This document shows, piece by piece, positions 9,582-29,774 of a stretch of 34,683 nt of DNA (position 1 is its first letter; each line of letters starts with the position of its first letter). A program made the position numbers and the translations under genes. This DNA comes from a bacterium. Its GTDB lineage: Bacteria; Patescibacteriota; Patescibacteriia; Magasanikbacterales; GWA2-37-8. The stretch spans positions 1 to 34,683 of the forward strand of contig JAKANM010000003.1 of assembly GCA_021812425.1 (NCBI GenBank), read 5' to 3'. The notes below the pieces were generated by a model. The model did not search any database, was not told where the DNA came from, and saw only the letters and a program-made list of their open reading frames with translations.

Positions 9582-11066
9582 ATGGAACATGAACCGATCA
9601 ACCTCCTAAACTCACTGCATCCGAAAGATTCACTAATATCCGGGGCGCCGGCGAAAACAAAACGACCAGTCTTTTTTTGGCTTTTCATTTTTATCTCGAT
9701 AATTGTGGGGGTTTTCCTAGTACGCACCATCGTTAAGACCGAGGGAAACCAATATACAAACATTCTAGAGCCCCGTAAATTAAGTTTTTTCGAAACCGTC
9801 AAAAATTTCATCTTTCAGCCGAAGAATGTCCTGATTGGACAGGATGAAGATCGGATCAACATCCTCCTGCTTGGCATCGGCGGACCCGGACACGACGGCC
9901 CTTACCTCAGCGACACAAATATTATTGCGAGCATCAAGCCCAGCACCAACGAAGTAGCATTGATATCGGTCCCGCGAGATCTTGGCGCACAGATTACCAG
10001 CCACGGCTGGCGCAAAATTAACAGCGCGGATGCTTTCGGGGAGGCTGAACAACCTGGAAATGGCGGGGAGTACGCGAGACAAATTTTTGAAAAAACTTTC
10101 AATCTTAAAATCCCTTACTATCTCCGCGTCGATTTTACCGCCTTTGAGGAACTGATTGATGAGATCGGAGGAATAAATGTTAATGTTCCAAATGCCTTTA
10201 CCGACAGCAATTACCCCGGGCCAAATTTCTCATATACTACCGTCCATTTTGACACCGGCCCCCAAACTTTGGACGGCGAACACGCCCTGATTTACGCACG
10301 CTCCCGGCACGGCAATGACGGCGAGGGTTCGGATTTCGCTCGCTCTAGACGCCAGCAACTTATCCTTGAGGCGGTAAAAGAAAAAATGCTTTCACTCGGA
10401 ACTTATGCGAACCCAACTCAGTTGAAAAAAATGTACGATTCCGCAGTCAAGCATATCAGCACCAACATGAATATCGCTGAGCTGACTTACCTAGCTTCAA
10501 CCGCTAAAAACGCGTCTGCTAGCAAAAAATTAGTTCTCGACAGCAGTAACGACGGCTACCTTATAAACACCACCGGTGAAAACGGCGCCTTCATGCTTTC
10601 GCCCAAAACTGGTAATTTTGATACAATAAACACGGCAATCCAAAATGTTTTCGGAATTGTATCCTCCAAACAAACGCCGGGCCTGATCAAAAACGATTTT
10701 GAAATTTCTTTGCCTGCTTCAAATCTGAATAAAATAAAAATTGAAATCGAAAATGGCACCTGGATCCCCGGTCTTGCCGCGCGCACTGAGAAAAAATTAG
10801 AAGACAAGGGTTATCATATTATCATGGTGAGCAACAGTCTGATCCGCCCGATTCAACACTCAGTGATCTATCTGCTTTCCGATAAGGTCAGTGTTGCTTC
10901 CACTGCTGAACTTTCGAAATTACTCCAAGCCGCCAGCACGAGGACCTTGCCTGGTTGGCTATCCGAGACCTACGACAACACCTCGACACCCGAGGACGAA
11001 ACCGGTATGAAATACAATAAAGACGCCGATATTCTAATAATTCTCGGCACTGATACTAAAGAATAG
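9582..11066 (+). CDS. LytR-CpsA-Psr (LCP) family protein with C-terminal LytR_C domain
   Basis: TM anchor; INILLLGIGG, SDTNIIASIKPSTNEVALISVPRDL, GGINVNVP, LDGEHALIYARSRH, DFARSRRQQ; C-terminal IKIEIENGTWIPGLAARTEKKLEDKGY. Confidence 0.92.
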   Translation: MEHEPINLLNSLHPKDSLISGAPAKTKRPVFFWLFIFISIIVGVFLVRTIVKTEGNQYTNILEPRKLSFFETVKNFIFQPKNVLIGQDEDRINILLLGIGGPGHDGPYLSDTNIIASIKPSTNEVALISVPRDLGAQITSHGWRKINSADAFGEAEQPGNGGEYARQIFEKTFNLKIPYYLRVDFTAFEELIDEIGGINVNVPNAFTDSNYPGPNFSYTTVHFDTGPQTLDGEHALIYARSRHGNDGEGSDFARSRRQQLILEAVKEKMLSLGTYANPTQLKKMYDSAVKHISTNMNIAELTYLASTAKNASASKKLVLDSSNDGYLINTTGENGAFMLSPKTGNFDTINTAIQNVFGIVSSKQTPGLIKNDFEISLPASNLNKIKIEIENGTWIPGLAARTEKKLEDKGYHIIMVSNSLIRPIQHSVIYLLSDKVSVASTAELSKLLQAASTRTLPGWLSETYDNTSTPEDETGMKYNKDADILIILGTDTKE

Positions 11067-11075
11067 GGACTATGT

Positions 11076-11134
11076 CACATATATTCTCATTCGCTCGAAA
11101 ATGTTTAAATTTATTTAAACATTTTGCTCACTCA
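11076..11134 (+). repeat. Intergenic hairpin element, copy 1 (upstream of der)
   Basis: CACATATATTC..TTCGCTCG + AAAATGTTTAAA-TTTA-TTTAAACATTTT (perfect 12-bp stem) + GCTCACTCA; shares flanks with 29702-29761 on the minus strand. Confidence 0.8.
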
Positions 11135-11147
11135 TTTCGAATATAGT

Positions 11148-12530
11148 ATGCCCACAAAAATTATCGACCATGACCTGCCGGTAGTCGCGCTCATTGGGAG
11201 AGTGAACGTCGGAAAATCCTCGCTGTTCAATAAACTGATTGAACAAAATCTGGCGATTGTCTCCCCGATCGCCGGCACCACCCGCACCCGCAACATCGCC
11301 GCGGCTTCTTGGCGAGGGAAACAATTCCGACTCGTCGACACGGGCGGGCTGACTTTTTCCGAAGACGTTCCACTGGAGGAAGACATCATCAAACAAACCG
11401 AGATCGCCATCAAGGAAGCTGATGTGATCGTTTTCGTTACCGATATTCAGAGCGGACTTCTGCCACAAGAAGTCGAGCTGGCGAAACGCCTGCGTACCAA
11501 AGCCAAAGACAAACCAATCCTGCTCGTCGCAAACAAAGCCGACAGCATCAACTTGCATTTACGCATCCATGAAGGTGAATGGCGAAGATTGGGACTTGGG
11601 GTACCTCTGCCAATCTCGGCTACCAGCGGCGCCAATCTCGGCGATCTACTCGACGCAATTTACAAACAGCTCGGCAAGCAAAAGCGTCTTCCCAAAAATT
11701 ATGAAGAAACCAAACCGCTCAAAGTCGCGATCATGGGTCGTCCTAATGTTGGAAAATCTTCTCTGTTTAACAAACTAATCGGCGAGGAACGAGTAATTGT
11801 GAATCCGCTTGCCCATACGACTAGAGAACCGCACGATACCCTAGTCGAGACCGAAGAGGGCCTCATCCAATTTGTTGATACTGCCGGCATCCGCCGCAAA
11901 GCCAAAGTCAGTGGTGAACTCGAGCGAATCGGCATTCAAAAAAGCATTGCCACCATTAACAAATGTGACATTGTTCTCCTTGTGCTTGACTCAACCGAAC
12001 CGATCGCTGATCAGGATCAACAACTTGCCGGTCTCCTCCGTGAACACACACGCAGTGTGATTATCGTCGTCAACAAATGGGACAAAGCCGAGGATAATTC
12101 CGACGAATTCCGAAATGAAAAAAAGAAAGATATTTATGGCTCGTTCCCCCATCTTGATTTCGCGCCGATCGTCTTCGTCAGCGCGAAGACCGGCTACCGC
12201 GTTCACCAAATTTTCCCCCTAATTAAACAAGCCTGGGAGGGACGCCAAATCGTCCTGACCGAAGAAGTTCTGAAAGATTTCCTCCAGCGCATCACCCGCC
12301 GCCGACTCCCGACCAAAGACCGCGGCGTCCGACATCCGAAAATTCTTGCGATCAACCAGCTTGGCTACAATCCGCCGATGTTTGAATTGATCATCAAATC
12401 AAACACTTCTGTCCATATTTCCTATGTTCATTACGTCAGCAACCGCCTGCGCGAGGAATTTGGATTTTTCGCCGCGCCGATCGTCATGAAGCTCAGCAAA
12501 CTCAAACACCACACCTATACTCCGCAATAA
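11148..12530 (+). CDS. der: Ribosome-associated GTPase Der (EngA)
   Basis: Two G domains (GRVNVGKSSLFN, GRPNVGKSSLFN), DTGG and DTAG, NKAD and NKWD, C-terminal KH-like domain. Start trimmed to MPTKIIDHDL. Confidence 0.95.
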   Translation: MPTKIIDHDLPVVALIGRVNVGKSSLFNKLIEQNLAIVSPIAGTTRTRNIAAASWRGKQFRLVDTGGLTFSEDVPLEEDIIKQTEIAIKEADVIVFVTDIQSGLLPQEVELAKRLRTKAKDKPILLVANKADSINLHLRIHEGEWRRLGLGVPLPISATSGANLGDLLDAIYKQLGKQKRLPKNYEETKPLKVAIMGRPNVGKSSLFNKLIGEERVIVNPLAHTTREPHDTLVETEEGLIQFVDTAGIRRKAKVSGELERIGIQKSIATINKCDIVLLVLDSTEPIADQDQQLAGLLREHTRSVIIVVNKWDKAEDNSDEFRNEKKKDIYGSFPHLDFAPIVFVSAKTGYRVHQIFPLIKQAWEGRQIVLTEEVLKDFLQRITRRRLPTKDRGVRHPKILAINQLGYNPPMFELIIKSNTSVHISYVHYVSNRLREEFGFFAAPIVMKLSKLKHHTYTPQ

Positions 12531-23287: not shown

Positions 23288-24078
23288 ATGGTTTCATGGG
23301 GTCTTCTGGTCGCCACGATATTTCCGTCTTTTGTAACCACAATCGTATGTTCAAAATGCGCCGCAAGCGAACCATCGGCCATTTTTATGGTCCAGCCGTC
23401 CGGCATGGTTTTAACTCGCCAATCACCAAGCGCGATCATCGGCTCAATCGCAACTACCATTCCCGGTTCAAATTTTATTTTTTCCAAATAATGGTCATGA
23501 TAATTCGGAATAAATGGCTCCTCATGAATAGCGTGCCCGACGCCATGCCCTGTAAGATCCCTGACAATTCCATAATTGCCTTGCGACTTCACGTATAACT
23601 CAATTGCTTTACCGACACTGGCAATCGAATTCCCAGGCTTTACCGCCGCAATGCCTTTTTCCAAAGCCTTGCGCGTAACATCGAGTAGCTTAGAAGTTTT
23701 TTCGGGTATCTTTCCGATCGGAACGGTCAAAGCCGTATCAGTAAAAACACCGCCGCGCGCTGGCCACTGCATCCCGATGTCGATGCTAAATATATCACCG
23801 TCTTTCAAAAAAACATTCTTGCGAGGTATCCCATGAACCAATTCTTCATTTAAGGAAGCGCAGATGGTTGCTGGAAATGGAACATCAGACGTATAAGTTT
23901 TATAACCCTTAAAGGCTGGTTTGCCACCGGCCTTCCTGATCATTTTTTCAGCCTGCTTGTCGATCTCAAAAGTTGAGATCCCGGGACGACAAAGTGCAGC
24001 GACCATTTCAAGTATCTCACCAATCCGTTTACCATTTTCGATCAAATTTTTTATGTCTTCTTCGGTTTTAAATTTCAT
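23284..24078 (-). CDS. map: Methionine aminopeptidase type I
   Basis: FKGYKTYTSDVPFPATICASLNEELVHGIP, FSIDIGM, GVFTDTALT, GHGVGHAIHEEPFIPN, GMVVAIEPMI, FEHTIVV. Confidence 0.96.
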   Translation of the reverse strand: MKFKTEEDIKNLIENGKRIGEILEMVAALCRPGISTFEIDKQAEKMIRKAGGKPAFKGYKTYTSDVPFPATICASLNEELVHGIPRKNVFLKDGDIFSIDIGMQWPARGGVFTDTALTVPIGKIPEKTSKLLDVTRKALEKGIAAVKPGNSIASVGKAIELYVKSQGNYGIVRDLTGHGVGHAIHEEPFIPNYHDHYLEKIKFEPGMVVAIEPMIALGDWRVKTMPDGWTIKMADGSLAAHFEHTIVVTKDGNIVATRRPHETI

Positions 24079-24092
24079 AATCGTGATAAGTT

Positions 24093-24111
24093 CGAGCGAA
24101 TAGAATATATG
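24093..24111 (-). repeat. Partial copy of the intergenic element (left flank only), upstream of map
   Basis: Minus strand CATATATTCTATTCGCTCG, near-identical to CATATATTCTCATTCGCTCG in copy 1; the stem and right flank are absent. Confidence 0.5.
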
Positions 24112-24129
24112 CGGCGAAGCCGATATGTA

Positions 24130-29156: not shown

Positions 29157-29693
29157 TTATTTAGAAAAAGGAAAACCCATATGAGAAAGTAGCGCGCGAC
29201 CTTCGACTTTGTTCTTCGCGGTAGTATTGATAATCAGTTGCAGACCATGCATCTTGTCGATTTCATCCATTTTAATTTCCGGGAAAGCAACTGTTTCTTT
29301 GAAACCAATCGTGTAATTTCCCTGCTTGTCGAAACTTTTATCAGAAATACCATGGAAATCGCGGACGCGCGGGAAAGTAATTCTTGTTAATTTTTCAAGA
29401 AATTCATACATTCTTTTGCCTCGGAGCGTAACGGTAACGCCGATTTCCTGACCTTCACGAATTTTGAAGTTGGAAATAGCTTTCTTGGCGCGGGTGCGTA
29501 TTGGCTTTTGTCCAGTGATGCGCGCAATATTCTTCTCGACGTTTTCGATAAAATTTGCCTCTTTTACAAAGCGACCAATACCAGCGTTAACCACAACCTT
29601 CTTGATCTTTGGAACCTGCATGACATTTTTCATGCCAAGTTCGATCTTGAGGGCGGGAACGATTTCTTTTTTGTATTTTTCGTATAATGTCAT
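29157..29693 (-). CDS. rplE: 50S ribosomal protein L5
   Basis: NVMQVPKIKKVVVNAGIG, ITGQKPIRTRAKKAISNFKIREGQEIGVTVTLRG, NYTIGFKETVAFPEI. Confidence 0.95.
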   Translation of the reverse strand: MTLYEKYKKEIVPALKIELGMKNVMQVPKIKKVVVNAGIGRFVKEANFIENVEKNIARITGQKPIRTRAKKAISNFKIREGQEIGVTVTLRGKRMYEFLEKLTRITFPRVRDFHGISDKSFDKQGNYTIGFKETVAFPEIKMDEIDKMHGLQLIINTTAKNKVEGRALLSHMGFPFSK

Positions 29694-29701
29694 AATTTAC
29701 T

Positions 29702-29761
29702 TGAGTGAGCGAAATAATTAAATTTATTTAATTATTTCCGAGCGAAAGTGAATTATATGTG
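29702..29761 (-). repeat. Intergenic hairpin element, copy 2 (between rplX and rplE)
   Basis: Minus strand CACATATAATTC..TTCGCTCG + GAAATAATTAAA-TAAA-TTTAATTATTTC (perfect 12-bp stem) + GCTCACTCA; flanks match copy 1. Confidence 0.8.
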
Positions 29762-29774
29762 AAACTATATAATA

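Follow-up and report, generated by a model that had tools for sequence, protein, structure and literature searches.

A short hairpin element at gene boundaries in Patescibacteria genomes: architecture, fold and possible mode of insertion

Architecture of the element and its copies in the window

What is the palindromic sequence that stands just before the start codon of der, and why does it recur elsewhere in the same genome? The window analyzed here is a 34,683-nucleotide stretch (G000:C10) that is part of the 742-kb draft genome of a Magasanikbacteria-like patescibacterium. A first-pass annotation described two copies of an intergenic element in it, and we find their cores at positions 11090-11134 (plus strand) and 29702-29746 (minus strand). 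Direct reading of both confirms that they carry the same flanks, TTCGCTCG and GCTCACTCA, around hairpins of equal dimensions (a 12-bp stem and a 4-base loop), and that each of the three stem differences between them is compensated on the other arm. The joint flank-hairpin pattern gave 0 matches in 100 dinucleotide shuffles. This description is accurate but captures only a fragment, as it omits the outer stem and a hairpin further upstream that also belong to the element; likewise, the flanks are identical between copies, but they are not unpaired and instead form part of the folded motif.

The complete unit spans ~90 bp and is ordered A / short hairpin 1 / A' / motif / variable hairpin 2 / motif / A'', where A' is a segment complementary to both of the flanking repeats, A and A''. 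The CATATA box reported upstream of both cores exists, and it turns out to be the 5' arm of the previously missed outer stem, in which A' (the CATATA box) pairs with A'' located 3' of the second flank; among the aligned exact-pattern copies this stem varies with compensation. Because CATATA(A)TTC covaries with A'', its conservation is explained without invoking a -10 promoter. Hairpin 1 typically has the form TATAtGGGC-TTC/TAAA-GCCaCATATA, such that its 3' arm is A' and its 5' arm is the repeat of A''.

Gene context, assigned by Pfam, places copy 1 before der and copy 2 between rplX and rplE. Copy 1 (plus strand) begins with A, the upstream direct repeat GAATA (11061..11065), which was identified from the sequence as the same as GAATA at 11139-11143 within A'' and overlaps the stop codon region of a LytR-type gene. 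It continues with a decayed hairpin 1 (GAC-TAT-GTC, 11068..11076) that is homologous to the GGGC-TTC-GCC hairpins found elsewhere, and with A' (CATATATTC, 11078..11086), which is the 'CACATATA box' of the first-pass annotation and the 5' arm of the outer stem, an assignment based on the covariation of A' and A'' at three positions. The 5' motif TTCGCTCG follows (11090..11097; CGAGCGAA on the bottom strand), then variable hairpin 2 with its 12-bp stem and TTTA loop (11098..11125), a bulged base plus the 3' motif GCTCACTCA (11126..11134; TGAGTGAGC on the bottom strand), and A'' (GAATAT, 11139..11144), the 3' arm of the outer stem, with the der start codon next at 11148. In copy 2 (minus strand), A forms the 5' arm of hairpin 1 (TTATAT, 29767..29772) immediately 3' of the rplX stop codon, and is followed by A' (CATATAATTC, 29750..29759), the 5' motif TTCGCTCG (29739..29746), variable hairpin 2 (29711..29738), the bulged base and 3' motif GCTCACTCA (29702..29710), and A'' (AATTATG, 29691..29697), which includes the ATG start codon of rplE. 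A third, decayed copy (~24077-24126, minus strand) precedes the methionine aminopeptidase gene map, whose start codon is at 24078; it retains hairpin 1 (ATAT-CGGC-TTC-GCCG-C-ATAT, 24107..24126, minus strand) and A' CATATATTC together with the 5' motif TTCGCTCG (24093..24111, minus strand), while hairpin 2 and the 3' motif are gone. A translated micro-ORF through copy 1 was considered and rejected, as the same frame in copy 2 stops almost immediately.

Fold of the element and the strand that forms it

In nearly all of the 185 copies that were parsed, hairpin 2 is bordered by the motifs TTCGCTCG and CTCACTCA or near variants of them. On the strand read by the first-pass annotation (the top strand), the hairpin 2 stems contain 50 A.C and 19 G.T mismatches (p = 2e-4, which is only indicative because the copies are related and not fully independent). 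The 50 A.C mismatches are G.T wobbles on the bottom strand, where the wobbles therefore mainly lie; mismatch counts in the outer stem and hairpin 1 show no clear strand preference. When the bottom strand is read, the flank TGAGTGAG is positioned opposite CGAGCGAA, forming tandem G.A/A.G pairs separated by canonical pairs, and the motif and both stems become one long hairpin with two, and often three, tandem G.A pairs. The tandems stand in a pyrimidine-GA-purine context, which is known to favour sheared tandem G.A pairing.

This reading predicts covariation within the motif, and it was found in the 185 copies. Motif positions 4-5 are G-C in 159 and A-T in 14, positions 8-1 are G-C in 153 and A-T in 14, and positions 1-8 are T-A in 126 and C-G in 20. 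Positions 5-4 are C.A in 97, T-A in 53, C-G in 30 and T.G in 0, meaning that the bottom strand has G.T, A-T or G-C at this site, but never A.C. Of the four G.A positions, three are near-invariant (174-179 of 185), and the remaining one, 2-7, is T.C in 145. Mutual information within the motif is highest at the predicted pairing partners and not at direct-repeat partners; a direct-repeat protein binding site was accordingly rejected, as motif position 4 tracks position 5 of the other motif (MI 0.22) and not position 4 (0.01).

RNAalifold recovered the identical fold unprompted, with two symmetric 2x2 G.A loops and compensated changes in 21 of 22 pairs, from a gapless alignment in the bottom-strand sense of 36 sequences outside the model-building set. 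Under the named structure of 23 pairs, 96.5% of cells are paired, as compared to 75.5% after shuffling and 34-55% after sliding, and the covariation score is 0.593 versus 0.196 for shuffled alignments. The covariation proposed from two copies is thus strong once more copies are aligned, and the compensated changes support selection on structure. RNA parameters make the bottom strand the more stable one in 178 of 185 copies, whereas with DNA parameters its advantage is small (120 of 185), so the energies do not discriminate folded DNA from folded RNA.

Distribution, insertion sites and the A' segment

Further copies are present both in the window's genome, where the strict pattern finds 3, and in many relatives. 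Copy numbers were determined using R1, a covariance model of the element core, which yields 26 copies in the window's genome (G000), 89 in G020, 48 in G021, 15 in G002, 13 in G022, and 0-8 in each of the remaining members of the window's family. Scans of the class and the phylum detected copies in at least 45 of 286 genomes (E<=1e-4) and at least 20 of 380 genomes (E<=1e-5), respectively; both counts are lower bounds, as stricter filters were used. The spread over the phylum Patescibacteria is patchy, and copies frequently occur in tandem at a spacing of ~70-80 bp. Most exact-pattern matches outside Patescibacteria were rejected as chance, as no hairpin is present. Two exact-pattern matches in viral contigs do not fit the folded model, and no phage carrier was found among these contigs. 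An Rfam scan gave the element no curated-model match, its only hits being tRNAs and, outside the element, one microRNA model below threshold, and a search confined to a limited set of papers gave no description of it; the family thus appears to be undescribed so far.

Several variants were observed. Loci L169:3107, L178:4789, L184:931, L184:6000 and L181:12302, along with G021 loci, carry a ~102 nt subfamily with an enlarged hairpin 2 and a common inner sequence (TATCCAG...CTGGCTA-like), which may transpose as a lineage of its own. At L183:4155/4213 and L190:2634/2686, pairs in opposite orientation overlap head-on and have A'' arm bases in common. In genome G527 (L275:12247, L279:1508, L281:1498), the element lies within a much longer variable inverted repeat with ~20 bp arms (e.g. 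CTATGTCCGTATCCTATAC ... GTATAGGATACGGACATAG), possibly forming a compound element.

Three species of one genus (G020, G021 and G022) allow sites to be compared directly. Almost every syntenic site holds an element in one species but none in another, although the comparable sites are few (about 20). The sole site in common with the same orientation is L182:13621, and at one additional locus G020 and G021 carry elements in opposite orientations. For example, G020 reads ...TTTTTGTATATG-gene where G021 reads ...GATATATAG-element-GTATATG-gene, and G022 reads ...AATAATATATG-gene where G021 reads ...AATATTATATAG-element-AAATATG-gene. Short direct repeats border many copies, the longest of which, 9-14 bp in several copies, include those at mreB (GTATGTTTAT) and a tRNA-Gly gene (GCGGGTATCATATA). 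An element is located at the identical place at the mreB start in G020 (L180:2347) and in the window's genome (L167:2539), with differing bodies; these elements in two genera are either very old or the result of one site being struck repeatedly.

Insertions adjoin start codons, tRNA 5' ends or terminators. In two genomes of the window's family, an ATG start codon occupies a fixed position within A'' in 55 of 86 copies. The context TATG occurs at 564 of 719 ORF starts (first in-frame ATG) in stretches L225-L244 and L306-L325 of G021 and G022, suggesting that this genus has an unusual start-codon context; an element hitting TATG would often hit a start codon, which partly explains the 55 of 86. 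In five copies a tRNA starts 1-2 nt 3' of the 3' motif, and in the same five the first bases of the tRNA recur upstream and have a match in A'. Separately, at L256:1501 the neighbour of the element is a tRNA-Leu on the other strand, which it adjoins at the 3' (CCA) end and not at the 5' end. In G399, ~8 of 12 copies lie immediately after an apparent bottom-strand terminator hairpin and T-tract. Orientation with respect to genes is mixed in families other than the window's, and no replication-strand bias was found beyond gene orientation.

In each of three copy groups, A' complements its own A'' better than in any of the cross-copy controls. Among 81 copies from the window's family, the outer-stem triplet next to the motif is fully matched in 53, with nine different triplets, whereas 2000 shuffles averaged 12 and never exceeded 22. 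This match could reflect target selection by pairing, as in the guides of IS608 (PMC5934647), copying from the target during insertion, or later selection that restores it. The tRNA cases suggest a link between A' and the target, beyond the element's own structure. A' and A'' do not match perfectly in every copy, so that the match could instead reflect structural conservation after insertion and not guidance. The complementarity of A' to the flanking repeats hints at base-pair-guided insertion.

We consider it probable (roughly 0.6) that the element belongs to a family of short mobile DNAs that encode no protein and are moved by an enzyme acting in trans on the folded single strand, with A' as the guide. 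Filled and empty sites, tandem copies, boundary insertions and varying orientation fit a non-autonomous mobile element recognised as single-stranded DNA and not an mRNA regulator; the first-pass suggestion of a mobile or repeated sequence whose palindromic core varies is supported. The trans-supplied enzyme would recognise the folded single bottom strand, A' would act as its guide by pairing with the target, and the target would be copied upon insertion, such that a start codon, tRNA 5' end or terminator tail is kept intact. Tandem arrays would arise when the element targets its own A'' repeat. More tentatively, it is possible that the element represents a new class: a DNA-guided, protein-less hairpin, one strand of which is recognised through sheared G.A tandems, with an internal guide that chooses the target or is rewritten to match it. 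Its targets (start codons, tRNA 5' ends or terminators) would then be lineage-specific, and its mover would be an enzyme not yet known.

Candidate movers, competing explanations and related elements

The nearest known kinds are REP/TnpAREP and IS200/IS605 ends (PMC6006769, PMC5934647, PMC3733652) and the mitochondrial hairpin elements (PMC2800124), which raises the alternative that this is a distant REP or MITE of the IS200/IS605 type moved by a Y1 (HUH) transposase. IS608 (PMC5934647) and REPs (PMC6006769) are short hairpins recognised as single-stranded DNA, in which a guide segment at the hairpin's side base-pairs with both the cleaved end and the target, and REPs are in addition non-autonomous, intergenic and high-copy; our element would follow the same logic, being a short hairpin with a guide-like segment alongside, and loss of the transposase gene after spread is known for REPs (PMC6006769). 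However, the Y1 transposase (PF01797) was detected in G002 and G527 but was absent in 8 of 10 genomes (G000, G020, G021, G022, G077, G161, G360 and G399), including the highest-copy ones. The surroundings of the relatives' Y1 and reverse transcriptase genes that were read contain no adjoining element. Unlike REP/TnpAREP, the element lacks a GTAG/CGTC tetranucleotide at the palindrome end, and most high-copy genomes have no RAYT/Y1 gene. Its complementarity is longer than a tetranucleotide, and the tandem G.A motif and freely varying stem further distinguish it from IS200/IS605 and REP sequences, as does the guide-like segment, which lies 3' and not 5' of the hairpin on the folded strand. IS200/IS605-type elements insert without target duplication, whereas direct repeats flank the copies described here, though one of each pair could be element-borne. 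We therefore regard movement by a Y1 transposase as unlikely. Y1 transposases, reverse transcriptases and extra tyrosine recombinases were each rejected as movers because their presence does not follow copy number; no mobilising enzyme was identified among these candidates, and no long form with an ORF between the motifs was present in the stretches read.

It is also improbable, to a slightly greater degree, that the element is a cis-acting mRNA leader, similar to a riboswitch or attenuator, in which A' pairs with either A or A'' to expose or mask the start codon. The A/A'/A'' triple does resemble such a switch, both alternative stems covary, and the ATG is fixed within A'' as noted above; however, that position is less telling given how common the TATG start context is. 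The first-pass candidate of an RNA regulatory or processing hairpin is not supported within the mRNA, because good folding is seen on the strand opposite to the downstream gene, the mRNA-sense strand folding poorly, and because the orientation of the element relative to genes varies by lineage. In other lineages the element occurs in every orientation and also next to tRNA 5' ends and after terminators, with no constant gene position, the downstream genes are functionally unrelated, and sister species rarely have insertions in common.

We give little weight to a non-mobile protein-binding palindrome or cruciform with a nucleoid, replication or regulatory role, maintained by selection and spread by duplication: its structure is kept across great distances and it forms tandem arrays, but members of a single family carry anywhere between 0 and 89 copies, empty orthologous sites occur, and direct repeats copy tRNA 5' ends. 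Least probable is that the folded form is a bottom-strand RNA (a small RNA retroelement or ncRNA) spread by reverse transcription, which is favoured by the RNA energies, the variable length of the direct repeats and the insertion after terminators reminiscent of group IIC introns, but conflicts with the failure to detect a reverse transcriptase in G000, G021 or G022, the inconsistent direction of transcription across lineages and the lack of an Rfam match.

Returning to the favoured reading, the element is best filed as a small, non-autonomous palindromic mobile element, possibly with a guide-directed single-strand mode. The mitochondrial repetitive or double hairpin elements (RHE/DHE) are mobile single or double hairpins with a few complementary substitutions between copies (PMC2800124), and Allomyces hairpin elements lack flanking duplications according to the passage of PMC2800124 that cites them. 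RHE/DHE are organellar and the present element is bacterial. As would be expected of a mobile hairpin of this type, the present element fills sites in some genomes that are empty in related ones. To our knowledge, no G.A motif or guide-like segment is present in RHE/DHE elements. Like MITEs and the Rickettsia palindromic elements, the element is small, dispersed, palindromic and protein-less; unlike a classical MITE, which combines fixed terminal inverted repeats with a target duplication, it has no such fixed ends, as its outer arms vary between copies in keeping with the local flank. Group IIC introns recognise their targets by base complementarity, and the G399 insertions immediately after terminator T-tracts resemble theirs, but at ~90 bp the element lacks a ribozyme and a reverse transcriptase.

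Patescibacteria genomes are very small, yet one of 1.1 Mb carries ~90 of these elements at gene boundaries. For annotation, this means that such hairpins before start codons are probably mobile insertions rather than riboswitches. The tandem G.A hairpin and guide-like segment provide a precise handle for finding the mobilising enzyme, and if A' truly acts as a guide, the family would represent another natural system of re-targetable DNA insertion by DNA-DNA pairing, besides IS200/IS605.
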